Of a stretch of DNA of 64,000 bases, positions 29,040-63,985 are shown piece after piece. Below the pieces are notes generated by a model. It was not told where the DNA came from and did not search any database. It saw nothing but the letters and a program-made list of their open reading frames with translations. The DNA is from Sipunculus nudus (taxonomy: Eukaryota > Annelida > Sipuncula > Golfingiida > Sipunculidae). The translations under genes and the position numbers were made by a program. The DNA is taken from contig CM049316.1 in the NCBI GenBank assembly GCA_026874595.1, positions 18,869,839-18,933,838 on the forward strand, in the 5' to 3' direction. Numbering within the stretch: the stretch's first letter is position 1; each line of letters starts with the position of its first letter.

Positions 29040-29507
29040 TTCTCAGAAGTTATTATAATCAGAAATGACGTTTCCTCCGATCGTTCCACCTCCTCCCTCC
29101 ATTCACGAAACGTAAATCGATTCTGTGTTTCTTAGAAATGATGTATCCTACGTTCCATCAATCGTACCATAAATATACCTGTGCGTTATTTTCTACTGAT
29201 GTGACTGAAACTTCATCTAAGTGGTCTAAGCGGACACTCTTCCATCAGAAACTATAATTAAGAAAAGAAATATAATAGACAAAGTTTCCTCACACACTCT
29301 CATGAATAACATAATGTTTCTGAATAAGAAAAACAGCTTACACTCAGTCTCTGAGTCATATATTTTGATATGCATGGTTGCGAGTATAAACGTACGGATC
29401 TTGTGATAAGTACTTTTATATATACGCACACAGGGCTAAAAAAAATATGACCATGGCATCTCCGAATGAGTAGGTTTTCTAATGATTAATAACAGAAAAT
29501 CACTTGC
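29040..29507. other. sequence immediately 3' of the last recognised minus-strand exon
   Basis: If the exon at 29508-29655 splices at its GC donor, the final coding exon and 3' UTR of the minus-strand gene should lie here or further left. No short exon continuing the expected LDD C terminus could be identified. Without splicing, the frame reads through to a stop at about 29436 after some 23 residues of non-conserved sequence. Confidence 0.4.
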
Positions 29508-29655
29508 CTGACGCAAAGACGTAATAGTCCTGTCGCTAGGTAAGCCAAGGGTCTCCCGAGTGAAGGCAGTTTCCAGTTCTTCTTCTGTCATGACATGAGC
29601 AGGATCTAATTTGCGTTCATTGATTATGTTGATCAGATATTCTTTATATGGTTCA
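29508..29655 (-). CDS. paralogue exon: LDD core (YKEYL...ELETA)
   Basis: Acceptor TTATGTTTCAG precedes the exon, whose first base completes a TGT (Cys) codon with two bases from the previous exon. It encodes 49 residues beginning EPYKEYLINII and containing DPAHVMTEEELETAFTRE. In HOIP the LDD has YKEYL...DP...ELETA in the same order and a Cys just before it. The LDD directs linkage of the acceptor ubiquitin at Met1. The donor is CAG|GCAAGTG, so this intron is probably a GC-AG intron; no GT lies at the expected position. The next exon was not found. Confidence 0.82.
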
Positions 29656-29771
29656 CTGAAACATAAATAATTTATCAAACAAAGAAAGCTCAATATTATA
29701 ACAACACATTAGATGCTAACATTTTATAATAATAATGACAATAATAATAATAATAATAACAATAATAATAC

Positions 29772-29878
29772 CAAAATATTTCTGTGTTGTGGTCTGCTTG
29801 CATTGTTTTGACATCACGCCCACGTCGCATTTTTTCACACAGCCATGTTGCTTTATTATCGAAGGTCTTACCATGATC
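29772..29878 (-). CDS. paralogue exon: early LDD
   Basis: Acceptor TATAG and donor ATTTTG|GTATTATT. The exon encodes 35 residues (DHGKTFDNKATW... to ...ADHNTEIF) and leaves two bases that complete a Cys codon with the next exon. The phase match (2 plus 1) supports the junction. It sits where HOIP has the variable linker between the RING2 end and YKEYL. The donor is followed by an (AAT)n microsatellite at 29725-29771. Confidence 0.72.
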
Positions 29879-30196
29879 CTATAAAAATAACATTCAATTA
29901 ATATTCCATCAATTGTAAAAAAGCAAAAACTGCCTTAATTGCATAAGTTAATCTTTATTGTAATAAGATAAAGAGATCCGATATAACACATATTACTTTG
30001 AGCACTAGGGAATACCGTTCTATAATATATTCACCCGTAAAGTAGGTATTGTGGAAATTTATATGACTTAAATATATTTTAGTGTATTACCATCATCTGT
30101 GCGGCGATATGTGAAGTGTCAAGCCAATCAGATAAGAGATTTTTCAAAATACATAGCATATTTAAAAATGTGATATTTTTATTTCATGATACCAAC

Positions 30197-30307
30197 ATTT
30201 AGTAGCCTCTTCAGACTCGTCACTGACATTCCACGAAGATAGTAAATGCAGTTACGCGGATGATGACAATGGGAGCCAAGCGCACAGCTAACGTTTGTAT
30301 TACAACT
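30197..30307 (-). CDS. paralogue exon: C-terminal part of RING2 and LDD helix
   Basis: Acceptor ATTTCTTTCAG, phase 0. The exon encodes 37 residues with Cys and His spaced for zinc binding (SCNTNVSC...HCHHPRNC), then IYYLRGMSVTSLKRLLN. This closely matches the HHPRDC-FYLRDW segment that closes RING2 and opens the LDD in HOIP. The donor AAT|GTTGGT is weak but gives a phase-0 junction with the next exon. Between this exon and the preceding one (30308-30548) I find no exon carrying the HOIP catalytic cysteine segment. Confidence 0.82.
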
Positions 30308-30548
30308 CTGAAAGAAATAATATCATTATCTAAGTATAGTAAGTATTTGGAATCACGATCAATATTTATAAATATAATATGCAATGGGCACATTACTAGC
30401 TACACTATGCACAAGGCCCGTTAAATAAGTGAAAAACTGCGATATACACCATTGATATGTTTGGAGCCAACTTATATTAGTTATGCTATTTTATCGAGGG
30501 TTATAGAAATCAGCCTTTCCGGTATTTGTCATTTGATTTTATATATAC

Positions 30549-30664
30549 CTTGCTATATTCACACCTGCAGCCTGCACAAAATGGCGTTAAGCACGTTTTG
30601 CAGGTCAGCTTCCTATCTTCCTCATAAATACAGTGACACTTACTCTCACAGCGAGGACAGCTTA
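30549..30664 (-). CDS. paralogue exon: RING2/IBR-like zinc cluster lacking the active-site Cys
   Basis: Acceptor TTTCACATTTTAG; the first two bases complete a Val codon with the single G left by the previous exon. It encodes SCPRC, then 14 residues (ESKCHCIYEEDRKL), then TCKTC and FCAGC, and ends in phase 0 before GTATATATA. The C-x2-C-x15-C-x2-C-x4-C-x2-C spacing equals that of HOIP RING2 as I recall it. At the catalytic cysteine position (11th of the 14) this copy has Asp. An IBR alignment (the IYE phrase) is also possible, which would make this a fusion of IBR start and RING2 end. On either reading the catalytic motif is missing. Confidence 0.78.
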
Positions 30665-31164
30665 CTAAAATGTGAAATAATACAACCTAAGATTTGAGCA
30701 TTGAAAGAAAATAATTCTGCCTATAGGTTCCACAATGAGAAAGAAAGACCGAAATAAATTTTAAATTCATTTATATTATTTAGCTCCTTGAAACCTCACA
30801 TAATCTGCATAAAGGACAACCACTTGTTTTAATAAGGGGTTACGCACTACGAAGAACCGTGTAATATTTGCAAACACAATATACGCATTTCGGAACCTAG
30901 TTATCAGTTCTATGTAATATCTAGATTTATAAATATGACTTTTAACTTTTTGTGTTGATAAAAGTAAAAGATTTGTATTTGTTAGTTTACAAAGTGAAAG
31001 TTGTCGATATCTTACATGAATTAATTTTAGGGAATTATCGTAACATCCAGAAGTTAATCATTGAATTAGAGGGGTTACAAAACTAGGACATCCAGGCATA
31101 TACTGATATTCAGTCAGCTGCAGTACAAAAAATACTTTAATATCATTATTTTTTAAACACTAAC

Positions 31165-31240
31165 CGGTTTTTGTCTCCTGGTTATCGTAATAATCATCTT
31201 CGTCCTCGCAAGCTTCTTGAATCTGGGAGCTTATAAGGAG
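31165..31240 (-). CDS. paralogue exon: short acidic linker before the zinc cluster
   Basis: Acceptor TTCAATCTTACAG and donor ACCG|GTTAGTG. The exon encodes 25 residues rich in Glu, Asp and Tyr (LLISSQIQEACEDEDDYYDN followed by QETKT) and leaves one base, giving a phase-1 junction that fits the next exon exactly. The position corresponds to the segment just before RING2 in HOIP. No RING1 exon is seen between this exon and the long exon to its 5' side. Confidence 0.68.
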
Positions 31241-32035
31241 CTGTAAGATTGAATCAAGAAGAAACTTAAGATTCCTTTTGGAAAAAGGTTTGCATGATTC
31301 GTTAAATCAAATTATAATTATTTGGTACCACAAACAGTGTCCGCTTTTAAACAGAAGAACGGGAACTAACAAAATATAACCTATTAATAATAAGGTGCCG
31401 TTAGTGATAATTGGTGTCACCATTTATACCACCTATCCTTTTTATATACTAACTCTGCCCTAATTCACGTTCACATGCAGAGTGCGAATGATCCTAACTA
31501 GGAGGGTATTGAGCAGTGATGTAGAACTCGACTGTTGTCCACTTTTGAGGGACATGGACTTTGGTGGGTCCTGGCCTCGGTATATACTTAGACTCGGAGA
31601 TAAGGACTCGAGAAATCTGGCCGGGTCCTTCTTGGGTACATAGAAAGTCACATACTATAAAGGCGTATATACATGTTCGAACTACTAACAGATTATTACA
31701 AAAAAGACTATCTACCAGGTCTTAGCCCCTGCATGGGGAGCAAAATGTTATCAAACATTTAAGAAAAAAAGCACGTGTATAAACTAACATAAAAACATAC
31801 GTGATAATCTCGAATTTCTATTCTAAATTTCTTTTAATAAGGAGATTTTACAAGACTTGGTTGGACTTGGTCTCGGGTATCAAATGTCTTGGACCCGAAG
31901 AGGGTGGACTTGGATTCGAAAATCAAGGACTTGTACTTGGACCCGGACTCGAGTGGCCTGACTCGGACTTGCTCTCGGACTCGCACGGTATGGATTTGGC
32001 TATATATCACTGGTATTTAGTATTTAACCTATTAC
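31241..32035. repeat. intron with Asp/Leu-phrase low-complexity repeat
   Basis: The intron contains a stretch (about 31500-32000) of degenerate repeated phrases such as GACTTGGACTCGGACT, GGACCCGGACTCG and GACTCGGAG on mixed strands. It resembles a short dispersed repeat and has no linked coding exon. It occupies the position where RING1 and IBR exons would be expected in a HOIP gene. Confidence 0.5.
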
Positions 32036-32950
32036 CTCAGATATTTCAGTCTGTTTGGTTGGCCCAGGGTTCAATATAGCTTTCTTTTGTCTTGTTGCAT
32101 TGTGCACTTTTGTTTTCTTTTGTGTAATCCTCTTGCTCTCTTCTATCTCTTCTTCTGGAAATTCTACAAAGCCGTCCTGAAAAGAATTGTCCTTTTTGAA
32201 TAACATGTGATGGTCTTTACCCCCAGTGGCTTCGATTTTCTTTCCTTTTATTCCATGCGCTTGATGCAGTTGTTCGACAGGGGGATTTCCACAGTTCTTT
32301 GCGAAACCAGCTTCCTTTGTTTGAATTTTTGTAGCGTCGCGTTGATTTTTCTGAAAGTGGTGTTTGCTTCGCACTGGACGCGAATTATCCGTCAATGAAA
32401 GTGCTGCCGGGGTTTCCACCATTTGGTTTGACAATGCATTTGGACGCACTGGACAACCAGTTTCCTTTATTTGAGTTTTGGTAGCGTTGCCTTCATTTTT
32501 CTGAATATGACGTTTGCTTCGGACTGGGCTAGCATTATCTGTTATAGCTTGTACGTCCGGGGTTTCTAGCTCTTGGTTTGACAATGTATTCGGCTCTTTG
32601 TTGTTTACTCCAGTTTTAAGTGGCGTTTGAATATCCTGAATTTGTGACCGGACTGGACAAGCATTATCTGTTATAGCTTGTACGTCCGGGGTTTCTAGCT
32701 CTTGGTTTGACAATGTTTTCGGCTTTTTGTTGTTTACTCCAGTTTTGAGTGGGGTTTGAATATCCTGAATTTGTGATGGATCACTGTTGTCTGCAGGAGT
32801 TTTGATATCATCTGTTTCTTTCTTTTGGACGTTTGACACCTTGTCATCGTTTTTCAGAGGTTCAAAGCACATTTCACACCACAGGTTTGACGCTGGGTTG
32901 ATTAGCGTACAAGCCCGGCAGCTTATTATATCTAACCGGGCTTCTGAATC
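32036..32950 (-). CDS. paralogue exon: NZF3 plus long disordered repeat segment
   Basis: Acceptor AATATTCCACAG, phase 0 at both ends (donor TCTGAG|GTAATA), 305 codons. It opens with a RanBP2-type zinc finger, SCRACTLINPASNLWCEMC (C-x2-C-x10-C-x2-C with the family Asn). The rest is polar and low complexity. Two near-identical 43-residue units lie at 32519-32776 (SQIQDIQTPL...TDNACPVR and the same ending TDNASPVR), followed by two diverged units with LSNQ and PVRSK phrases. The 3' part is Lys/Glu rich. The exon sits where the plus-strand gene has no equivalent, since that gene's large exon lies 5' of its NZFs. Confidence 0.82.
32519..32776 (-). repeat. 129 bp (43-residue) in-frame tandem repeat, two near-identical copies
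   Basis: Two consecutive in-frame copies differ at only a few residues (KKPKTL against KEPNTL, NACPVR against NASPVR), which indicates recent duplication inside an exon. Diverged relatives continue 3' of it. Confidence 0.85.
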
Positions 32951-34323
32951 CTGTGGAATATTTAAAATATTTTTCTCAGTTAAAATATAATAACTGATGC
33001 TTTCAGGTTTTAAACACTCTGTGTGTAACTCGGGTTATTTTTTTCTGTTTTATACACTGTTAAATTATTATGTATGAAACAACGTTAATGCATGATGCAT
33101 GTTTGGTTTATATTGTCATCAAGCTCGTGAAGCAAGTATATGTTTAGTCAACAAGCGTTTAAATTTAAACCTATACACCACTTCCTCTGAGCCACTCACG
33201 GCGTTACCGATCGGTATAATGCATGGTTCCCAATTACCGAAATATTAACTGAAGCCTGGTCATTCGATTCATTCGGCATTGCAATAACTACATTTGGTTT
33301 CTCTTTCACCCGAACCGAAAAGACGCATCACGGTATTCAATTTACTTTAATCATCTGTGCTTTAAAAGGCTTAACCTACTGATAGGAACAGGTGGAACTA
33401 TACTTTAGTACCTGTATAGGTTGGGTTCTAGTGCGACTCAACGAAATTTAATTCAAATGGAAAAGTTTCAAATAATCCAAATGTAAATTCGAATGTTAAT
33501 GCAATTAGTTACAATAAAATGCAAATGATATACAAATTACAACTTACAAATGTATTTGCGGTTGAAGCCTGTTGGGTTACAAATACGCAACAGGATGCCA
33601 CTTTATTATTAAAAATTTGAGTAGCTTATAGTAGGATATATTCTAAAATATATTCCACTGATATAACGAACTGATTATGGACATCCCTTGCAAGTACATG
33701 CATATAGGACGGCCTTGGGTAACAGGGAAAATATGCCAAATTGATACATTTGATCAAGTTATAAAAAGGAAATATTAATCTTCCCTTTACACATCAATTA
33801 TCATGAATCAATATGGTCAATATAAGTAATTAAATGAACAATAGTCATGTATTGATGAAAATCTACCTAAGATTTGAACATCACTTGTGGAAAGGTTTCT
33901 TCGGGGTTATATACATTTTGGGCGGGCCTGAATACAGGCGTTGGCGGAGGTATGCTCTATATGTTTATGGTTTCTGTGTACATTTTGTTTTTCCGGCGCC
34001 GAATCATTAATCATACTTTAACATGATGGTCTTGCTTTTTGAAATAGGTCAATATACCTAAGCATAGTAAACAATCGGTGACATACAGAACCCATAATTT
34101 TCTTTTTGTTAAAAACTGAAGTGGCTACATGTTTGAAATTGTTAAATATTTCTGCCTCAAACAGTTACAAAAGCATGTAGCTACCATGATGACAGTACTA
34201 CCTCCTTTTTTTAAATTTTAAGATTACTAATTACACATTTTATGCACAATCTGTTTCACCAATAATTATGAAACATATTTGTAACATTTTCAATGGTAAC
34301 AACACTAACAGGCCATTACTCAC
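32951..34323. other. intron of the minus-strand gene
   Basis: AT-rich sequence of about 1.37 kb between two NZF exons. No additional zinc finger exon, microsatellite or obvious repeat was recognised on either strand. Confidence 0.5.
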
Positions 34324-34461
34324 ATTTCTTCTGAGGATATTAGTCGCTGTGTCGTGAAGAGTCTTGGAGCACATCTCACATATTTTCATTCCTGGTGGGT
34401 TAAGATATGTGCAGTATGTACACGCTATCTGCTCAGTGACAGGTGATTCTGCCAGGTAAAC
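34324..34461 (-). CDS. paralogue exon: NZF2
   Basis: Acceptor TTATTTTCAG and donor AAT|GTGAGT, 46 codons, phase 0 at both ends. It encodes a RanBP2/NZF finger, ACTYCTYLNPPGMKICEMC, with the Thr-Tyr pair after the second Cys where NZFs use Thr-Phe to contact ubiquitin. It is closest to the plus-strand finger at 51518-51652 (PVT...ACSQCTYHN), which suggests direct descent from a common exon. Confidence 0.85.
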
Positions 34462-34737
34462 CTGAAAATAACTTTCGTATATAGTCAGGACAACACGCGA
34501 TATCGGGTCTTCATTTGATTCTTGTAAATATCTGCGAATAACCGTATAATCGGTTTAGCTGCAAATGTAGATCAGCAAAATTTAAAAGTTTTATAAAAAC
34601 GTATATTTTGAAAAGTTTTGCAGTTCATATGTGTCACTTAAAGAAATATGTTAAATTCTTTTTAGATATATTGTTATTTTTTTCTTGATTAGTTACCGAA
34701 ATGTTGCATGTAATGATAATAATAATAATAATAATAC

Positions 34738-34867
34738 CCGTCCATTTGGCGAATTCTCTGGTGGAAGCTGTTCAGCACAAGAGATGCACAGGACCGCATC
34801 CTCAAGATTAATGAAGTCACACTGGGGACATCTCTTTTCTCGCTCCATACTTTTCAGTGACAAACAC
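34738..34867 (-). CDS. paralogue exon: NZF1
   Basis: Acceptor TTTTCTTTCAAG; the first base completes a codon from an unseen upstream exon (phase 2). The donor is GGACGG|GTATTATT. It encodes KRCPQCDFINLEDAVLCISC then AEQLPPE. The plus-strand finger at 51203-51352 reads CPDCSFVNLADAELCISCAN followed by PLP, a very close match and strong evidence of paralogy. An in-frame Met lies 7 codons into the exon but an upstream exon is more likely, because the reading frame is open to the acceptor. Confidence 0.83.
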
Positions 34868-39210: not shown

Positions 39211-39243
39211 ATGGAGAAGCTGGATGCTTTAGCGGAGCTGGCG
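39211..39243 (+). CDS. RNF31: RNF31 exon 1 (start codon)
   Basis: An ATG opens MEKLDALAELA, then donor GCG|GTGAGT, phase 0. A 5' UTR piece probably begins at 39163 after the acceptor TATCTGACCAG, so the first transcribed exon lies upstream. The start is chosen because the peptide continues in frame into the PUB exons and no in-frame coding extends further 5' convincingly. Confidence 0.7.
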
Positions 39244-41274: not shown

Positions 41275-41424
41275 GAAGCAGGAAAAACCCGACGAGATTT
41301 ATCACAACAGCTGCTGGACGGACGGTCACCCCCGCCACCAGATCAATATAAAGGGCTGAACCTGAGCGTGGACAAAAAGTACCCGCTGATCAAACTACAG
41401 AATCTGATCACATCAAACTGCTCG
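41275..41424 (+). CDS. RNF31: RNF31 exon 2: PUB N-terminal helices
   Basis: Acceptor CCTCATCCTACAG and donor TGCTCG|GTAAGG, 50 codons, phase 0 at both ends. It encodes EAGKTRRDLSQQLLDG... followed by KKYPLIKLQNLITSNCS, the first helices of the PUB fold. Confidence 0.85.
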
Positions 41425-41881
41425 GTAAGGAGACAAATAAACCTTACAAAGTCATGCAGAAAAAAAGGAATTTATGTTAAAGGAAGGTAATGACCTTGCG
41501 ATGTATAAGTGTGGGATATTAAGTATTTCTAACGATTAAAAGGTACCTTTATAAAAATGAAAAAGAGCCAAAACTAAAAGCACTCTTCAGCAGTAAGCAT
41601 ATTTATCATAGATAAAACCTTTCATATCTTGAAGGTGATAACCAAGCTCAAATATTATCGTGCACAGCCTAAATAAAAGCATGGATTTTATACATACAAC
41701 ATATATAGGAGTATGTTATTAAAACATGGAAATGCTTAAACCTTAACACAGTTTGGTATAATTAAACAAACAGTATCCGTACTTTTCTTACTACAGACTT
41801 CCTCCACTCGCCTACCGTAGAGCCCAGGACATAATGTATACATAATGATTAGTTAATGTACTTTATTTACGTACTTTGCAG

Positions 41882-42034
41882 GCTGACCTAGACTTTGGAA
41901 AGCTGATAAAGGGGCTTGATATATTGGTTCGTTACGGGATCAATCTGCTGAAACCTATAGATGATAGACCCCCTAAATGGCGGATGATAAAATATGACAA
42001 CAAAATTTTTTGCAACACTCTCAAGGACCTGGAG
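41882..42034 (+). CDS. RNF31: RNF31 exon 3: PUB core
   Basis: Acceptor GTACTTTGCAG and donor CTGGAG|GTTATC, 51 codons, phase 0. LDILVRYGINLLKP and WRMIKYDNKIF match the HOIP PUB pattern (LN-LEKY-NLL ... YWR-VKFNN-VF). The Asn of YDNKIF aligns with the pocket Asn of human HOIP that contacts the tyrosine of PUB-interacting motifs, as I recall the literature, so ligand binding is probably retained. Confidence 0.9.
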
Positions 42035-43385: not shown

Positions 43386-43585
43386 GGTAGTCGAGATATA
43401 CTGTACAGGTTTGGGTATGAGAGAATTCAGGATGACGGGCTATACTTTGTTGATGGGTCTGAACCCAACAGACAATACATAGCTGATGCAGTTTCTGAGA
43501 TCCTACTGGCCAAGGACGAGTTGACAGCTTTGTCAGACGGATATCACCCTAAAAAGGATGCCGTATGTCGTCAAATTGCACAGTG
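43386..43585 (+). CDS. RNF31: RNF31 exon 4: PUB C-terminal half
   Basis: Acceptor GTATTGTAG and donor CAGTG|GTAGGG, phase 2. It encodes GSRDILYRFGYERIQDDGLY ... ADAVSEILLAKDELTAL. HOIP has the same G-RD-L--YGY-E-Q-DGL-F phrase followed by a VLLL-TEL helix, which is the most recognisable part of the PUB domain and the basis for naming this gene. Confidence 0.92.
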
Positions 43586-44094
43586 GTAGGGATAAATTTG
43601 CTTATTTGTAAGTTCGTATGTGCTGGTAATGAACATGAACATTTGGGGCTGGTTGTATAAAAAACAGATAGCTTATAAGGTTGGTGCCTTATGGTAAGCT
43701 GTGCGGTTGCAACGAGAGACTGCAAACGGTGCATTAGATCATTTTGGAGAACGTTATGAAGACAGACTTATCAGAATAATTATTTCACTATAATAGCATG
43801 CAGTCGAGCGCATATACGTCCGCTAAGGAAAAATGTAAGACTGTGTCCGCACGTGTATCCATATCTTACCAGGACAATATCGCATCCCTAAAAGGTTTCC
43901 TAGAAATCGGTCAAATTATGATTGTGCATAGTGATAACAGGCAAATAAACATGCCAATAAGGCATTGATGAAAGCATAACCTCCTGGGCGGAGTTAAAAC
44001 ACAATCTGTCAGTAACAATATGTTTTTTTATATAAATGAAGCTGTGATCTGAAATAAAGTCCGTTATGATATTTACTGAATTTTATATTAACAG

Positions 44095-44185
44095 GTTCCA
44101 AAGCCAAAATACAACAGGAGAAACCCAAGTTGAAGACGGGAATGCGTCACATAATATGATGGATGGCGTTTCAGATCGGGAATCG
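44095..44185 (+). CDS. RNF31: RNF31 exon 5: linker after PUB
   Basis: Acceptor ATATTAACAG; the first base completes a Trp codon with exon 4. The donor is GAATCG|GTAAGT, phase 0. It encodes FQSQNTTGETQVEDGNASHN and a few further polar residues, and is probably disordered. Confidence 0.8.
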
Positions 44186-44565: not shown

Positions 44566-47500
44566 GATTCATCATGTCATCCTCAGATGGATGAAGACAT
44601 AACCAGTCATAGCAGTAATGAGCCTGCGGTCGGGACGCTCGTAGATGTAACTGAAAAGAATTCTTCTAATCCTACAGTCAAAGTATCGGCAGAGTGCATG
44701 GGTCTCGAAAACAAAGAGGTGATACCAGGATCAACGATGGGGTTACCGAAATCGTTTGATGCTTCAGAAACCAGCGGCAAATATGTGCACAATCGCTTAA
44801 CATCATCAGAATGCTTGTCAGATGAAGTGACGATGAATATGCAGGATTATTCGAAAGACACAAGCAGTTGCTCGGAAGGACATGAGCGGTCCAGCATGCA
44901 ACAAACTGAATCCAAAGATAAATCATTTCTGCTTCCTAAGCATAAACATAGCATCAAATGGTCAAAAGAAAATGAAAACAATTTGAATGAACCTGATGAC
45001 ACAAGAGATCCGACTCCAGCATTACTTGATGTTATTCCATCTTCCTCAGACCCTAACACAAACATGAACAGTTTATGTCTAGGAACAGTGCCTGGACAAA
45101 CCGATGCACAGAATGATTCGTTTACAACTGCGAATGGAAAAAAGTCGTGCGTTGATCTGGTTTCTTCCCAGCCAATACCTGGGCAACCAAGTACCAGTTC
45201 CCAACCTTTGGAAACCACAGCAGATTCAGAAAGTGGGAGTTTCTTGCATGTTACGGCTGACCAGTGTTCACCGCCTACTTTGCTAGACCAAACATATATT
45301 CATTTCAACAATTCAGATAAAATCACAGAGTCAGAGCACGGAAGCTACCTTTATGTTGCGGTTGAAAGGTGTCCTTCACAACAAACACCAAAACAGACCC
45401 CTTTCCAGCATCCAGGCTCTTTGCATTTAGCAGCTGAAAAGCATTCTTCGCAACAGGATCCAAGGCAGACTGTTCTTCCTATTCAGGATTCAGGATCTCT
45501 GCAAGATTCTGACGATGAGGATATCCTTTATGGTTCACTCAGGACAACTGAAAAGCGTCCTTCGAAACAGCTACCAAGGCAGACGGTTAATTCTTTTCAG
45601 GAATCAAGATATATTCAAGATCCAGGCGATGAAGATATCCTTTATGGTTCACTTAGAGCAGCTGAAACGCGTCCTTCGCAACAGGATCCAAGGCAGACTG
45701 TTCCTCCAATTCAGGATTCGGGATCTCTGCAAGATTCTGACGATGCAGATATCCTTTATGGTTCACTCAGGACAACTGAAAAACGTCCTTTGAAACAGCT
45801 ACCAAGGCAGACGGTTAATTCTTTTCAGGAATCAAGATATCTTCAAGATTCAGGCGATGAAGATATCCTTTATGGTTCACTCAGATCAGCTGAAACGCGT
45901 CCTTCGCAACAGGTGCCTAGACAGACGGTTACTCCTTTTCAGGAACCAAGATCTGTGCTAGATTCAGGGGATGAAGATATCCGCTGTGGCATACAAACAT
46001 CAGTTAGAAACCGTCCTTCACCAGTCCTTGGAGAAACGGTTCCTCAGTTTCAGATTATAGACTCAATGCAAGATTCGCCTGATTGCAACAGCCTTGGTAC
46101 ACACGCCGGAAACACAAAGAGTCAAGTACCACAGCAATCCTTCCCTCCTTTCCAGGACCCTCAGTTTCAAATTTCAGACGCAATGCAAGACTCTGACGAT
46201 GATCAGCTTTACGGTTCACTCACAGCAGTTGAAACGCGTCCTTCACAATCGGGGCAGGTGATTTATCAGTTTTCGGATCTCAACACGCTGCAAGACTCGG
46301 ACGATGACGAACTTCTTTACGGCACAGGCAGAAAAACTGAGTCTAGTGTAGATCAAAGGAACCAGTCGACTTTGTATATCAGTCCTGACCTTGATTCCTT
46401 GTATGGTGACGGGACATTCCATACACAACGAGATGATTCTACATCAGAATGTCCGTCTGTGAACATTGATCAATCCACGGCAGCATGCTTTTTGAAACTC
46501 CCTGGACCTGTTAATAATCCACAGAAGTTAGCCAATAGTGAGACAAACCCAGAGAGTGAGTTTGCTCATGGCTTTTTGTCCAGGGGAAGACATGCTGATA
46601 AAACGTATGTTTGGCCTGAAGGTCAAAACGCCAAAGTTGGAACAGAGGAATCATCCATTGAGACCGGTGGGAATGAAAGACACCATAAAGCAAGCTTCAT
46701 AAACCGTACTGCTGCACCGGTGAAACATTTCACAACAGTGAGACGAGAAGTGTCGGATACATACTCACAAGGGAGTCAATCCTACGTTCACGATAATCTT
46801 TCCGAGGAAACGCACATCTCTGTTACAGCTCTGACATCACAAGATAACCATCGAGATTATATAAACATCTGCTTTGCCCCAGGAACAAGATGTCAGCCGA
46901 CGCAGGTTGAAAACACTGTCAGACCGGATGTGCAGACACACACCAAATACGAGCAACAAAACTCCAATACCATCAGCACCTCAGATGATGAGAGCTCTCT
47001 GTATGGTACAGGGAATGACGCATCCAGTTCACACACATTCAATGGAAACCCAAATGTCACTGCAGTTAGGAATATTCCCGTATCATCATATGATTCTAGG
47101 TGTTATGTTCGTACAGTGACAAAAGGTGTCCACAACACTAAAATGGTATTCTCAGCTATGGATATGACCCGAAGCTTTGGTGATTCTATCCAACCTACCG
47201 GGCAATATGAAATGTCAAGTTCTGTTTCAGTCAGCCAGTTTAATAATGTGAGCGGAGCTACCCCCGACCATTCTAGTGTTTGTCCACAATCGGTGGGAAT
47301 AGCAGAGCAGAAAACAGCCAACACCAATACACAGAGATCGAGCGTGAGGAATACCAGCTCAAACACATGTTTTGATTCATGTGAGTTCGACAGAGATCAT
47401 TATCAGCTTCCATCAACAAATACTGATCGTCCAGACAGAGAACACGCTCAAACAGTCGGGTCGGGCGCGGTTACACAAAAAGCATTGCAAAGGCAGGAAG

Positions 47501-47898
47501 TTCTGAGTGACCAAAGTAAAAGGTTTTCTCTCACCGGTGCGGGTGCCATAGGAGGGATTCCTAATCCTAGAATAAATAACAACCACGAAAAATTTGTAAG
47601 CAACCAGCATCAGGACAGCTTCAGTCATGACACTCAGCGTCACGACATGCAGTGTCACGACCATCCGCGTCACAATGTCCAACGTCACGACAATCAGCGT
47701 CACAATTTCCAGTGTCACGACAATCAGCGCAACGACAGTCAGCGTTACGACAACCAGTTTCACAACAATCAGCGGCACGATAATCAGCGTCCATTTGCTG
47801 AAGACAATTGGAGAAGCGCTAATTGTGATGAGCACATTTACGAGACAATTGAAGATGTTCGTGAAGGAGTAGAAAAATTTAGGAATGAGAGAGTGCCA
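44566..47898 (+). CDS. RNF31: RNF31 exon 6: giant 1111-codon disordered exon with acidic LYG motif array
   Basis: Acceptor GTTTGTTTATAG and donor GTGCCA|GTAAGT, phase 0, 3333 bases, no stop. The segment is Ser/Asp/Gln/Thr rich and low complexity, with no folded domain recognised. It contains: diverged then near-identical 38-residue tandem units (about residues 420-680); eight acidic motifs ending LYG (LYG at residues 530, 568, 606, 644, 757, 793, 821 and 1021) plus one degenerate copy (DEDIRCG); and an 11-copy 5-residue HDNQR-type repeat (47626-47790). The acidic LYG motifs resemble the DDDLYG C terminus of VCP/p97, a known ligand of PUB domains. A 1.1 kb-residue single exon between PUB and NZFs is not a feature of human HOIP. 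Codons are used evenly enough to support real coding. Confidence 0.88.
45450..45910 (+). repeat. 114 bp (38-residue) in-frame tandem repeat with dimeric order
   Basis: The ATATCCTTTATGGTTCACT landmark occurs at 45521, 45635, 45749 and 45863, exactly 114 bp apart. Units 1 and 3 (LQDSDD-DILYGSLRTTEKRP) match each other better than their neighbours, as do units 2 and 4 (GDEDILYGSLR-AETRPSQQ), so a 228 bp dimer was duplicated. Diverged relatives continue on both sides. Confidence 0.93.
47626..47790 (+). repeat. 15 bp (5-residue) repeat encoding HDNQR-like units, 11 copies
   Basis: Eleven consecutive 5-residue units of the form H-D/N-x-Q-R (HDTQR, HDMQC, HDHPR, HNVQR and so on). Nine units begin with His. 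The pattern could bind divalent metal or act as a charged spacer; function is unknown. Confidence 0.92.
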
Positions 47899-48429: not shown

Positions 48430-48510
48430 TGCCAGCATTGTAATAACATAAATAGTCCTGGAGCAAGATTCTGTAAGAGATGTCACAAGATCCTGGTTAT
48501 GAAGAAAAAA
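48430..48510 (+). CDS. RNF31: RNF31 exon 7: zinc finger NZF-1
   Basis: Acceptor CTTTTTTTCAG and donor AAAAAA|GTAAGT, 27 codons, phase 0. It starts directly with the finger CQHCNNINSPGARFCKRC (C-x2-C-x10-C-x2-C), close in position to the first zinc finger of human HOIP. Confidence 0.88.
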
Positions 48511-48828
48511 GTAAGTTTCGCTTTTGCTTTCATTTGTGTATAATATTATAACTTCCTGATAGCATCAACTGTTTTCTACTCAATAGAGCTATGGAACAGG
48601 AGTTTTTGTTTTAATTTAACAAAAACTGTTGACGGTACTAAGTTATGTCATCCTTGACTTTAAATGAGTATTGAATTCGAATGTTGAATTTTTTTTTAAT
48701 ATTACGTCCAGTCTCAATATTAAACAGACTTGGCTCATAGATGTGTTCATCCATATAGATTGAAAATATGATAAAACCATAGTTGCTATATGCCGGTTAA
48801 GTATTATACACTAAATTCCGTCTCACAG

Positions 48829-48957
48829 GTGACCAACAATGCGAGGGAGACGGACTTGGAGTATCAGTGTTGGCGATGTAATAAAGTATTTCCTGCAACG
48901 GCCAAAGAGTGTCCGAGCTGTTCCAGAAATGCAAAGGGCGGAAAAGCAGCCAGGCAG
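48829..48957 (+). CDS. RNF31: RNF31 exon 8: zinc finger NZF-2
   Basis: Acceptor CCGTCTCACAG and donor AGGCAG|GTATGT, 43 codons, phase 0. Finger YQCWRCNKVFPATAKECPSC. It lacks the usual Asn after the second Cys pair, so it is a diverged RanBP2-type finger. Confidence 0.87.
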
Positions 48958-49356
48958 GTATGTTTATTTGAAAAACCTTTCCTGTTCAATAAATTGTGTT
49001 GATTTTTAGTAACTTCTGCTCCAATGTCATAAAATGTCAAGTTATTATAAGTATCAAACCTTACCCTCCACCTACAATCGTCATCCCATACGTATATGAA
49101 TGAACAAGTGTTTTCCAACGATGCTTTACTAATACGCCGCATTACACTGGCAGACACATTAAGTCATTAACTTTGTACGAAAATGATCTTTCGTTGAACG
49201 TTTAAAGTTTAATATGCAAAATATTATGTAAACATCCTTGGATGGTTTGCAATATAAATATTATTTGTACGAAGTGCGTACAATTCCAAGGTAGGGCATG
49301 GAATGAAATTTTGTTGATTTATAGGTTAATTCACTTTTGTATATTTTGTTGCTTAG

Positions 49357-49500
49357 ATCGTGGATAAAGATGGCATGACAGAAAACCTTCCTGGAAAACC
49401 ATGTGTTAGATGTGGAGCTGTGGATGTCAGAACTACAGACATGTGTACTAAGTGTAGAGACTCGACGCTGACTATAGCAGCTATACCCCCACTAAATGAG
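49357..49500 (+). CDS. RNF31: RNF31 exon 9: zinc finger NZF-3
   Basis: Acceptor TTGTTGCTTAG and donor AATGAG|GTAAAT, 48 codons, phase 0. Finger CVRCGAVDVRTTDMCTKC with the same cysteine spacing but an atypical loop. Confidence 0.86.
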
Positions 49501-49889
49501 GTAAATTTGTATAACTGTTTAGTTTTACCGCCACATTTGACAATGTAAACTTTATTACCACAGAAGTATTGCAGATTTAATGGCCACCCCTGAGTCAATC
49601 CCAGAATGAACATATCTCTATTTGCATTACTTGACCTTAATGGGTGATATATACTTTTACGACTTTAGAGGTGTCACCAAAAGAATTTGTTTTTATGTCA
49701 ATAAGGTATAAAGTTATGGGCATTTAAATATTTTACCATTTTAAGTAGTGGCCAATCATTGGCGATTTACAATGGATTGTATCGGGTGGTCCTTGATTGT
49801 ACATTAAGATACCTCCATGAATCTGTTTCAGATGAGAACGCTTACATAACATTTTTGTTCAACCTCTTTTGATAAAAATGGTTCATTGT

Positions 49890-50320
49890 TTGGACTAATA
49901 AAGAAAAAACCCTAAAGATTTTGAGGTCACATGGTCAAACGTCTAGGTCACGGGTTCCACTTCCTGAAAAAACCTTCTTGACGCATTTTATGCCAAAGTT
50001 TTCTTCCCCACCATTGAACCGTTCATACATATCTCACCTAGGTCATGAGGTCATGGGGTTAAGGTCACAAGACCCACTTCTTGGAAAAACTTGGCTATTC
50101 ATTTGATGCCAATATATACACTACTAATCTGCCATATTACACACATGGCTCACCTATCAATAGGGGAAGAACCTTGCTGATTTCGAGGTCCCAATATGAG
50201 AGGACAGGGTCACTGAACTGCCCGGATGATTATGTGAACTGTTTAATTCACCGTGCCTCATTATGTTCTTATGCGAGGGGATGCTCCGCTTTGCGGTACT
50301 TTTGTTTAATCATTTCATGA
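49890..50320. repeat. dispersed repeat in intron 9
   Basis: Short related blocks (GAGGTCACATGGTCAAACG, CTAGGTCATGAGGTCATGG, CTTCTTGGAAAAACTTGG and similar) occur twice or more within about 250 bp. The style resembles repeats common in mollusc introns. No coding content. Confidence 0.45.
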
Positions 50321-50535
50321 CCAATTAGTCCACAAACACCGTTGATATGAAACCTGGATATTTACCGTACCACGCTAATGAGCGGAAGGTCTAAAATCAT
50401 AAGCCACTTGTTGAATGTGTTTTGTTGACGTTGAATTAATTAAATTTTTATTGGAAAGATATACTTTGTTAAAGAGAAAATTATTCAAAATCCTATTTAT
50501 TGAAACAAAGATACACTATACTTACTACATTTCAG

Positions 50536-50682
50536 AAGCGGGTACCACATGGTTCAGGGTGGCCATGTGAATACTGCACTAGTATAAACCCTGCATCTGA
50601 GAGAATTTGTACTGTGTGCGCAAAGACGCGCAGTGATGTGGGTATGGCACCTCCTGAAGACAACAATGAACTATTTGAACAG
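50536..50682 (+). CDS. RNF31: RNF31 exon 10: zinc finger NZF-4
   Basis: Acceptor TACTACATTTCAG and donor GAACAG|GTAAAC, 49 codons, phase 0. Finger GWPCEYCTSINPASERICTV then CAK: the canonical W-x-C-x2-C-x3-N-x6-C-x2-C NZF. Confidence 0.92.
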
Positions 50683-50735
50683 GTAAACGAGAAAAACTAT
50701 TAATTACTTTAGCGCAAAATTCCTTGAACAGGCAG

Positions 50736-50737
<2 letters not shown>

Positions 50738-50778
<41 letters not shown>
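50738..50778. repeat. (GA)n microsatellite
   Basis: About 40 bp of pure GA repeat in intron 10. Confidence 0.95.
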
Positions 50779-50783
<5 letters not shown>

Positions 50784-51202
50784 TTCGACATGAAAGTAAT
50801 GCATTCATAGAATATCTCAACATATCATTTTTTAATGTCAGCAGAATGTTGTTAAGGATTTTAATCCGCTGTCTGTCACACATGGTGAAATCGTATAAAG
50901 AATGGAGGTTATGAGTTCTATATTTAATAAACTTAGAGATTCTATGACTTATAAAGGAAATTGCTAAAAAATAGAGATGATTATTTACTTGTGTTACTGG
51001 AATAACAGTTTTTTTTATCTATTTTAAAGAATACATACGGTGGTTTTCTGACTTGGACTAATTGTTGTTACAGATGTATTAATATAATGCAGACCAATAA
51101 AATGTGTCCTATTTTAAGTAATGAATTAATGAATTAAATGTATGTCACGGTAATGTCTAAGGTATTCGATTATGTGTCTTTAATGTAATCTTCATAATTC
51201 AG

Positions 51203-51352
51203 CCAAAACATGAGCCGGATCCAGAAGTAACAGAGAAGACATGCCCAGACTGCTCTTTTGTAAATTTAGCAGATGCTGAGCTATGCATTTCTTGCGCAAA
51301 TCCTCTTCCTCGACACAAAACAGTTGTATCAGAAGAGCCTAAGGATAATCAG
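51203..51352 (+). CDS. RNF31: RNF31 exon 11: zinc finger NZF-5
   Basis: Acceptor TTCATAATTCAG and donor AATCAG|GTAAAA, 50 codons, phase 0. Finger CPDCSFVNLADAELCISC, then ANPLP. It is the closest relative of the first finger of the minus-strand paralogue. Confidence 0.9.
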
Positions 51353-51517
51353 GTAAAATTCATGGATTTTTTTTCTGGTTAATGCATTACCGGGAGAAAG
51401 TTATATCAGAATGTCATAAATATTTTATATAATTGGAACAGAACTAAATCTAATGCATTAATCAACGAAACTAAAATAAAAATATAGAAATAATAAATAG
51501 ATAGGTTTTTTTTAAAG

Positions 51518-51652
51518 GATGAAGCACCTGTTACAAACTATTGGGCCTGTTCTCAGTGTACATATCACAACGCACTGACTGATGGAGTGTGCCAGGCTTG
51601 TTGGAAAACACGAAATTATGAAAATGTGTCTTCAGGATCAAAGGAAAAACAG
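51518..51652 (+). CDS. RNF31: RNF31 exon 12: zinc finger NZF-6
   Basis: Acceptor TTTTTTTTAAAG and donor AAACAG|GTAACT, 45 codons, phase 0. Finger YWACSQCTYHNALTDGVCQA then C: a canonical NZF with the Thr-Tyr pair at the ubiquitin-contact position, likely ubiquitin-binding. Confidence 0.92.
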
Positions 51653-51974
51653 GTAACTAATATGGCAATGAATTTCTATTGCAAATGAATTCTTTTGCAA
51701 TGAATTTCTGTTGCACAAAGACAAAATAATGAAATCTGGTGAACGATAAACGAACGCAATGACTACAAGTTCGATAGTTTTCCTTTCAAAATCATTTTCT
51801 GATGATGATATCTCTTTGAAATAGCCTAAACCGACATTCCTTTAGTGCCTAATATCACGTATTTATCAATTATTCTATTGTAAAATTTTCATTTGGTTGC
51901 AGTGTGATTCATTGTACTTGAATAATATGCACGTTCTAGAATGTGAATGACACTTTGCGTACACTATGATACAG

Positions 51975-52121
51975 GGACCTCGCCAGGATGTGAAAAACCA
52001 ATACAACTTCTGTGGATTCTGTGGTCAAATAATGAGCAATAGAGATAATTACTGCAGGAACTGCCCAAAAAAGAGAAATAGTGGTGAAAACATTGATACA
52101 AGTACACCACTCAACGATGAG
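51975..52121 (+). CDS. RNF31: RNF31 exon 13: zinc finger NZF-7
   Basis: Acceptor CTATGATACAG and donor GATGAG|GTGAGT, 49 codons, phase 0. Finger NFCGFCGQIMSNRDNYCRNC; a diverged finger like NZF-2 and NZF-3. The next recognised exon is 10.3 kb downstream. Confidence 0.87.
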
Positions 52122-62406: not shown

Positions 62407-62529
62407 GGAATAGTCATGAAACCACAGATGAATGATCAACTTAAAGGAGCCAAGGGCCATGAGGGGAAAAATCGACTTGAGAAAATTTTGGATTTTGTCC
62501 TACAGAAATTACCCGGAGGAAAGAAAGCT
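62407..62529 (+). CDS. RNF31: RNF31 exon 14: linker
   Basis: Acceptor TGTTGTTGTCAG and donor AAAGCT|GTAAGC, 41 codons, phase 0. It encodes GIVMKPQMNDQLKGAKG... then LEKILDFVLQKLPGGKK. The second half is a probable amphipathic helix leading into the UBA region. Confidence 0.75.
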
Positions 62530-62893
62530 GTAAGCTGAAAATATAAGGTTTATATTTAGTATATGGAAGGTATTTCTTCGCAGTTAGCCATGCTGTATTT
62601 GTATGCTATATATGATATAAATGGTATTAAAATGGACTTAAATCGAACGACGTATTTACATATGTATTTTTAAATGTATTAACAGAACGAAATATATAAT
62701 TTAATCGCACTAGCGATACAGCAAACCCAAGTATCTCTTATAGCGTCTTTTATATTCTGGAATTAAAAAAATATAATAACAAATGCACGGGATACATTTC
62801 ACATACAGTTAGCAAACTCGCAAATGGACATTAAAATTGTATAAACTGTCAACGCCATATCACTTATATTGCATAATATCTATATTTTTATAG

Positions 62894-63034
62894 GAATTCA
62901 TGCAAAATGCTAGAAACAACCTCGGAATGAATGATCAAGTAAACTTAGAAATGAACGATTTGTGCAATGACCCAAAAAGGCGAAAACTAGAAAATCAACA
63001 TATTTCTGACCAATCACATCGAGAACACGTTTTG
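62894..63034 (+). CDS. RNF31: RNF31 exon 15: linker with basic patch
   Basis: Acceptor TTTTTATAG and donor GTTTTG|GTATGT, 47 codons, phase 0. It is polar and contains PKRRKLE, which resembles a short basic nuclear-localisation-type patch; no function is claimed. Confidence 0.75.
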
Positions 63035-63202
63035 GTATGTTTTTACTTATCAAGTTATATAACGGACAGCGTTTTAATAAGAACACGCCATGGAATTAAC
63101 TGTAAGTTAATCAAGCAATCATTTATAAATATCTAACCTAATTTAAAACATATTTAACTTTATCACTAATTTTTTTTATTAAATTTGGCACTATTCTTGC
63201 AG

Positions 63203-63466
63203 AAGGGGCTGCAAAGAGGTTATTCGGAAAAGGAGGTACACGCCGCCCTGCGCAATTGTAACGATGAGGATCCTGTAAAATGGCTGGATAATGAATGGAG
63301 CGAACGAATTGATAAGGTTATTAAGTTGGTCACTGAAAAACAAAAGGCAAAGAAAGGAACAGAACCTTGGACATTAAGCCAAAAAGAAGCAAAGGATGCT
63401 CTGGTGGACTGTGACGGCTATCTAGGAAAAGCTGCTGACGCCTGCCTTGCGTTACGTGAAAAGAAG
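63203..63466 (+). CDS. RNF31: RNF31 exon 16: UBA region
   Basis: Acceptor ATTCTTGCAG; the donor GAAAAGAAG|GTGCTT is weak but gives a phase-0 junction to exon 17. It encodes two successive UBA-like three-helix patterns: GYSEKEVHAALRNCNDEDPV then KWLDNEW, and LSQKEAKDALVDCDGYLGKA then ADACLALREKK. In HOIP the UBA region binds the ubiquitin-like domains of HOIL-1 and SHARPIN to assemble LUBAC. Confidence 0.87.
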
Positions 63467-63733
63467 GTGCTTTTAAACACAGAAAGTGTTTAATCTCTTA
63501 AACAATAACCCTTTGACCTATCCTTCAAAATAATTCGCCACCATATATCATATGCCATATACAATTTTGAAAACTTTAAATACATGTAATTGTAACCCTT
63601 TAATGCATTTAAGTGAAAACTCATTTTTACTGAATAGGTAGAATTAGATAAACATGATTAATCGGATATTATAATTTGTTAATTAGCCATAGCCAAATTA
63701 CTGTACTAATGCAAAACTGTGATTTGCCAATAG

Positions 63734-63985
63734 GTTCGGAAACTGCTGTATGGGGAGCAGGATGTTAAAGTCATTCACAAACTACTTCATGCAGAGAATG
63801 GAGATGTTGATGCGGTAGAACTCTGCATAGCCCAGCGGAGTTTAGTAAATTTCTTACCAAACATTTGGGGAGGACGCACACTTGATGATTTTCCGCAGGA
63901 GGCAGAGTTTGACCCTTCCGCAAAAGACGAAAACAGTGAACAACAATTTGTTAACAGGATAAGTGATAAGCGTATTTCGAAGGAG
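63734..63985 (+). CDS. RNF31: RNF31 exon 17: C-terminal UBA extension (last in window)
   Basis: Acceptor GCCAATAG and donor AAGGAG|GTATAA, 84 codons, phase 0. VRKLLYGEQDVKVIHKLL ... GDVDAVELCIAQRSLVNFLP continues the helical UBA extension, with a phrase like the end of the HOIP UBA. The next exon, expected to lead to RING1, is outside the window. VRKLLYGEQD also contains LLYG without the acidic run of the exon 6 motifs. Confidence 0.82.

Follow-up and report, generated by a model that had tools for sequence, protein, structure and literature searches.

The HOIP (RNF31) gene of Sipunculus nudus described here carries, in a single linker exon (exon 6), an array of eight acidic motifs ending in Leu-Tyr-Gly (LYG). 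The array is real, and its motifs are, as judged from their residues, probably PIM-like (PIM, PUB-interacting motif), weak putative ligands of a PUB domain. Also new here are at least seven HOIP UBA loci in the genome and a paralogue (P1) with an unrelated Met-Tyr array, which lifts interest beyond what the exon 6 array alone justifies. A first-pass annotation of the same DNA had called an array of this kind undescribed, in agreement with open PMC full text, where no paper on PIM arrays within HOIP, nor on mollusc HOIP family expansion, was found among the matches listed.

Gene identity and exon layout

The window, i.e. the whole stretch of 64,000 nucleotides analysed, corresponds to C11:18869839-18933838, and positions without a contig name are given in its coordinates. 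The plus-strand gene, which runs on past the window end, is HOIP, with a PUB domain and a HOIP-type UBA pair inside the window, and RING2 and LDD outside it. Exons 1-13 join in frame into an open protein of 1631 residues with AG/GT borders.

39211-39243, plus strand: exon 1; ATG start picked by eye, open frame, donor GTGAGT
41275-42034, plus strand: exons 2 (41275-41424) and 3 (41882-42034); initial PUB domain portion, including the equivalents of Tyr82, Asn85 and Asn102; from splice sites and phase, the RNF31 PUB match in PDB and the pocket table
43386-44185, plus strand: exons 4 (43386-43585) and 5 (44095-44185); here the PUB domain ends and the linker begins; from splice sites and phase, PDB and Pfam matches
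44566-47898, plus strand: exon 6; 1111 codons, phase 0/0; linker carrying the motif array; charge-hydropathy composition
48430-52121, plus strand: exons 7-13; seven small Cys-rich, zinc-finger-like exons; DZR 44.8 bits (above cut-off)
62407-63985, plus strand: four UBA-pair exons (62407-62529, 62894-63034, 63203-63466, 63734-63985); PF16678 94.2 bits, splice sites

The clear PUB domain and the HOIP identity given in the first-pass annotation both stand. Upstream of exon 6, PF09409 scored 40.2 bits (cut-off 34.3) and the six distinct PDB sequences matched at E<=0.001 were all RNF31 (best E 4.1e-19); the UBA pair reached 94.2 bits with PF16678 (cut-off 22.4) and the LDD past the window 52.8 bits with PF18091 (cut-off 23). 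The zinc fingers between PUB and UBA are Cys4 exons, for which DZR was over its cut-off and the RanBP zinc finger scored 15.1 bits against a cut-off of 27. Past the window, up to about 73400 in window coordinates, RING1-like, IBR-like, RING2 (with RGGCKHLTC) and LDD pieces were recognised by eye. The RING2 and LDD pieces, joined by eye, matched RNF31 structures at E 2.1e-25 with the RGGC Cys aligned, which we take to be the catalytic Cys. In Pfam, the first RING1 piece was unmatched, the second gave zf-RING_2 at 23.6 bits (cut-off 27.3), and the IBR piece had no IBR match. Two RING1-like segments precede the IBR-like piece, at about 64250-65050 and at 68726-69390 (window-extended coordinates), the sub-threshold Pfam RING match being confined to the second; they may represent a duplicated RING1 or pieces of two genes.

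The order of PUB, Cys-rich fingers, UBA pair, RING2 with catalytic Cys and LDD is that of human HOIP, from which the gene differs by its 1111-codon linker exon with the array, its seven Cys-rich exons, the replacement of Tyr94 by Lys and of Asn101 by Asp, and its expanded family. Drosophila LUBEL is likewise a large invertebrate HOIP orthologue, but LUBEL lacks a PUB domain and flies lack OTULIN, according to the part of PMC5090701 drawn on here.

The LYG array of exon 6

Exon 6 is in frame with the upstream PUB exons and with the downstream zinc-finger and UBA exons. Its composition falls on the disordered side of the charge-hydropathy line, a Pfam search gave no match at E<=0.1, and it is probably a long disordered linker. 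A false exon is unlikely, given 1111 open codons, AG/GT ends, phase 0/0 and a HIYETIEDV stretch matching paralogue P3. The eight LYG cores share one reading frame, in which all eight acidic LYG motifs and the one degenerate copy noticed at first pass were located.

45429-45982, plus strand: tandem array, period 114/228 bp (Tandem Repeats Finder, TRF); holds motifs 1-4 and the unit of the degenerate copy
45514-45534, plus strand: motif 1, DEDILYG; Tyr codon 45529
45628-45648, plus strand: motif 2, DEDILYG; Tyr codon 45643
45742-45762, plus strand: motif 3, DADILYG; Tyr codon 45757
45856-45876, plus strand: motif 4, DEDILYG; Tyr codon 45871
45970-45990, plus strand: degenerate copy, DEDIRCG; DIRCG core at 45985
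46195-46215, plus strand: motif 5, DDDQLYG; Tyr codon 46210
46303-46323, plus strand: motif 6, DDELLYG; Tyr codon 46318
46387-46407, plus strand: motif 7, DLDSLYG; Tyr codon 46402
46987-47007, plus strand: motif 8, DESSLYG; Tyr codon 47002, 600 bases past motif 7

Two relatives of the repeat that lack the core were found by eye, SYLYVAVERCPSQQTPKQTPFQ near 45350 and DSPDCNSLG near 46072. A chance origin of the array was ruled out by shuffles and random draws: composition shuffles of the 1111 residues had a mean of 0.08 LYG, with eight reached in 0 of 2000, while acids at -8 to -3 averaged 3.9 at the eight LYGs (2 to 5 in each motif) versus 0.85 over all positions, a value matched in 0 of 20000 draws, as was the mean of 3.8 for five less redundant copies. 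Leu-Tyr or Met-Tyr pairs ([LM]Y) account for 10 of the 28 Tyr of exon 6 (binomial P 5.8e-6, overstated as the repeats are not independent). As LYG was the search criterion, Leu, Tyr and Gly at -1, 0 and +1 are present in 8/8 by selection; Asp occupies -5 in all eight motifs, an acid -3 in seven, and Leu +3 in five (YGSL). Position -2 reads I, I, I, I, Q, L, S and S in motifs 1-8, and is acidic in none. Pattern searches for exon 6 relatives in prokaryotic and viral contig collections, which hold no animals, gave five matches each, none of them confirmed. A second, unrelated 15/30-bp array (TRF), which encodes a His-rich QRHDNQ run, lies at 47624-47791 within exon 6.

Repeat history and selection

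Motifs 1-4 are recent 114-bp duplicates and do not count as independent instances, because one 114/228-bp tandem array contains them (4.8 copies at 79% match, or 2.4 copies at 90%). Among motifs 1-4 alone, blocks gave pN/pS of 0.42-0.69 and LYG showed zero changes, synonymous or otherwise; with synonymous changes absent, these four copies give no sign of LYG selection. The TRF array does not include motifs 5-8, whose flanks have largely diverged (pN 0.71-0.75, pS 0.58-0.87), the flank of motif 5 being partly common to motifs 1-4 (SL..ETRPSQ); Asp is found at -5 in all four and an acid at -3 in three. Pairwise pN/pS ratios, which are non-independent and carry no formal P, were 0.34 (all eight motifs) and 0.41 (motifs 5-8) for the acid columns -6 to -3, which played no part in copy selection, with a range of 0.34-0.41 when a five-copy set is included. 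The flank blocks gave 0.81-1.10 and 0.84-1.22 for the same two sets, and 0.79-1.22 over the three. The ratio of 0.09 for LYG is circular, since LYG was the search criterion, and was not used.

The PUB pocket and known PUB ligands

The pocket of the HOIP PUB domain comprises I78, Y82, N85, P92, Y94, N101, N102, V104 and Y124, and K99E reduced binding (PMC4017264). At I78, Y82, N85, P92, Y94, K99, N101, N102, V104 and Y124, the PUB domain studied here has I, Y, N, P, K, K, D, N, I and Y, i.e. identity to human at seven of ten positions (I78, Y82, N85, P92, K99, N102, Y124) together with V104I, Lys at Y94 and Asp at N101. The YxxN pocket and the cornerstone Asn102 are thereby retained (Y82, N85, N102, Y124). 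Human Tyr94 stacks on OTULIN Arg57 (PMC4017264); with Tyr94 replaced by Lys, the exon 6 motifs carry Gly at the position of that Arg. The PUB fragment has a pI of 5.9 and no net positive charge, which counts against the motifs as PUB ligands.

The OTULIN PIM (EEDMYR, residues 52-57) is, like the exon 6 motifs, internal, with upstream acids and a hydrophobic-Tyr pair, its M-Y resembling the QMYH of P1; unlike them, it has an Asp at -2 and occurs once, in a partner protein, instead of as an array inside HOIP. This Asp54 forms a peptide kink, D54A binding 60-fold more weakly, whereas M55L is nearly neutral (370 nM), so that Leu is accepted at -1; Tyr56, the PIM Tyr, gets phosphorylated, and phospho-Tyr56 cannot bind (PMC4017264). 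The SPATA2 PIM (Asp-Leu-Tyr-Thr, 336-339) is also an internal D-L-Y using the HOIP pocket with Leu at -1, and a lone RELYTT occurs in paralogue P5, but it has Asp at -2 (PMC5031558), is described as one PIM and acts in trans. The C-terminal PIM of VCP/p97 (DDLYG-COOH; ELM class DOC_PUB_PIM_1, added in the 2024 update, PMC10767929) shares the acidic run followed by Leu-Tyr-Gly, and in its bound complexes the -2 Asp putatively engages in an intramolecular hydrogen bond (PMC6995525); in the exon 6 motifs an extra residue separates acids from LYG, and they are internal, without a free carboxylate, and repeated in cis. All three known PIMs thus place Asp directly before Leu/Met-Tyr, whereas the exon 6 motifs do so in none of eight, their acids standing one residue earlier. 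Of the earlier description as VCP-like PUB ligands, the eight acid-rich LYG motifs with their Leu/Met-Tyr pair stood; the cores are D-x-LYG and not DDDLYG. The label of canonical PIM was dropped for all eight, and they are filed as PIM-like because the kink-setting Asp is absent, the strongest argument against the earlier PUB-ligand reading.

Among PUB partners in this genome, OTULIN was found as three exons at C14:21197275-21201296, with no N-terminal PIM exon recognised from C14:21191800 on, and VCP as one CDC48_N exon. The exact DDDLYG-stop pattern had no Leu match in the genome, although an intron or another ending would escape the pattern. Two DDDFYG-stop sites, on the minus strand at C11:75159089 and 75350419, 190 kb apart, are candidate PIM-like C-termini. 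The SPATA2 profile PF21388 had no match here, but none in control genomes either. Two non-HOIP PUB genes were named by eye as UBXN6-like and NGLY1-like, and a third non-HOIP PUB match lies at C17:12725666-12725905 with two TAA inside.

HOIP paralogues and family expansion

A genome profile search with PF16678 found seven HOIP UBA loci, this gene included (six on C11, one on C16; two of the seven matches contain TAG), and LDD matches numbered 16, every one on C11, with some genes represented by two pieces; both counts are lower bounds. Many of the matches form a cluster around the window at C11 18.70-19.19 Mb, with others at 16.6, 57.2-57.4 and 66.4 Mb and at C16:27.6 Mb. Aplysia is tabulated with one HOIP (PMC9334734). 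On the minus strand of the window, at about 29200-34850, lies a second HOIP-like gene with zinc-ribbon fingers, RING2-like and LDD pieces, and a long exon in which separate repeats were seen by eye at about 32027-32960; the RGGC Cys position of its RING2 aligned to a non-Cys, and it is possibly a pseudoenzyme or a decaying copy.

PUB exons were found in 6/6 paralogues within the 30 kb examined per locus. The linkers of these paralogues are stop-to-stop frames and not full exon models, so their ends may be intronic and small exons may be missed. P1 (C11:16.6 Mb), with PUB exons and a UBA match of 90.4 bits, has in its linker frame of 324 codons nine [LM]Y (six QMYH) among 17 Tyr (binomial P 1.8e-6, overstated as the repeats are not independent), and none among four Tyr in a second frame. 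Its repeat is about 20 residues long with a consensus of about SPEQMYH; the 12 [KLMTV]Y[HTR] sites have Met at -1 in nine, His at +1 in ten, Gln at -2 in eight and an acid at -2 in one, and one more repeat lacks its Tyr. In the other linkers [LM]Y makes up 1/22 Tyr in P3, 0/13 in P4, 3/20 in P5 and 0/2 in P6, all at chance level, and 3/5 in P7, an excess (P 0.005) without an array and, by eye, partly from unspliced ends. Single motifs occur in P5 (SDMLYGDG, RELYTT, EHMYQ) and P3 (DLNLYDGDG).

Searched whole against the 30 kb taken from each of the six paralogues, exon 6 had no tblastn match at E<=0.1, and the exon 6 and P1 arrays therefore look independent. Its last 38 residues alone matched P3 (HIYETIEDV versus HVYETIDDV, E 0.012); the linkers of exon 6 and P3 have their end in common and not their arrays. 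The motif H[IV]YE[TK]I[ED], at about 47835-47865, is common to P3 and, by eye, P5 (SHVYEKIDSI), and is perhaps a conserved phosphotyrosine site. This gene, P1, P3 and P6 retain both N85 and P92; P4, P5 and P7 have lost N85; N102 is kept in 7/7. Both array-bearing genes thus keep N85, P92 and N102, while P3, and largely P6, has an intact pocket without an array; seven genes are too few for a statistical association of array and pocket. The apparent convergence of the exon 6 and P1 arrays on [LM]-Y beside intact PUB pockets is the best evidence for the putative PUB ligands in cis.

Possible function of the array

The most probable single reading, held tentatively, is that the acidic-x-Leu-Tyr-Gly motifs of exon 6 act as weak, PIM-like ligands of HOIP's own PUB pocket. 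The Tyr would enter the Tyr82/Asn85/Pro92/Tyr124 pocket and the Leu would fit the Ile78/Val(Ile)104 groove, each motif binding weakly because the kink-forming Asp at -2 is missing, at a guessed tens of micromolar or worse. Owing to the high local concentration, the array may fill the pocket in cis or link adjacent HOIP molecules, and so would meter how readily OTULIN, SPATA2-CYLD or VCP reach the ligase; tyrosine phosphorylation, which blocks known PIM binding, would release it from the pocket. In a Gaussian-chain estimate (0.55 nm segment and exponents of 0.5-0.6, all assumed; motifs 355-846 residues from PUB) the summed local concentration of the eight motifs was 0.38-2.39 mM. At an assumed Kd of 0.1 mM this corresponds to 79-96% cis occupancy and to binding of a competitor such as OTULIN weakened 5-25 times, and at an assumed 1 mM to 27-71% and 1.4-3.4 times. 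By this model even weak motifs could have an effect, and they might also connect one HOIP molecule to another. As exon 6 has phase 0/0 at both ends, its skipping would leave an in-frame HOIP without the array, a possible array switch.

A serious rival, in our view rather unlikely, is that a disordered linker expanded neutrally or under weak selection, the array being a minisatellite with an LYG codon run and its Tyr at most nonspecific stickers. The 114/228-bp and His-rich 15/30-bp arrays within one exon, other repeats in some paralogue linkers (e.g. QGGT-rich runs in P3, by eye) and the loss of the core in one degenerate and two core-less relatives are consistent with such drift, but motifs 5-8, outside the TRF array, keep the acids at -5 and -3 despite differing flanks. 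Src-family kinases prefer upstream acid, Leu at -1, Gly at +1 and Leu at +3. Phosphorylation of the linker Tyr by tyrosine kinases, with SH2 docking of signalling proteins independent of PUB, is also a serious rival, though unlikely: the motifs resemble these preferences in their upstream acid, in Leu -1 and Gly +1 (8/8, by selection) and in Leu +3 (5/8), and the separate Tyr motif near the exon 6 end, shared with P3, fits the same reading, while the P1 repeats, mostly QMYH, lack such a context. The PIM Tyr56 of OTULIN is itself phosphorylated, hence the kinase reading and that of PUB ligands overlap.

It is very improbable that the motifs instead recruit other PUB proteins (NGLY1/UBXN6 type), or LC3-type or endocytic adaptors (YxxL). 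The UBXN6-like and NGLY1-like genes are present and YGSL occurs in five of eight motifs; however, in the results cited from PMC4017264 and PMC5031558, the human NGLY1 and UBXD1 PUB domains bound the terminal p97 PIM and not the tested internal PIMs of OTULIN and SPATA2. Moreover, I/L/V at +3 is absent from three of eight exon 6 motifs and from 11 of the 12 listed P1 motifs. LIR, ITIM and YxxPhi patterns were used for comparison, and at most five of eight motifs fit them.

Returning to PUB self-ligands, it is possible, if on balance doubtful, that the expanded HOIP family built such arrays at least twice independently (the eight D-x-LYG of exon 6 and, in the C11:16.6 Mb copy, nine [LM]Y), so that the ligase became a self-crosslinking scaffold, gated by phosphotyrosine, which keeps OTULIN and CYLD out or meters their access. 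The HOIP family may thus regulate itself in an undescribed way. PUB-PIM docking determines which deubiquitinase occupies the linear-ubiquitin ligase, and a ligase equipped with competitors of its own would possess an intrinsic brake or a switch for assembly. How the HOIP N-terminus autoinhibits is stated as an open question in PMC13414579, and the array would then offer a natural system for studying it. Even if the motifs are not PUB ligands, at least seven HOIP UBA loci whose linkers change fast beside conserved PUB pockets represent an unusual diversification.
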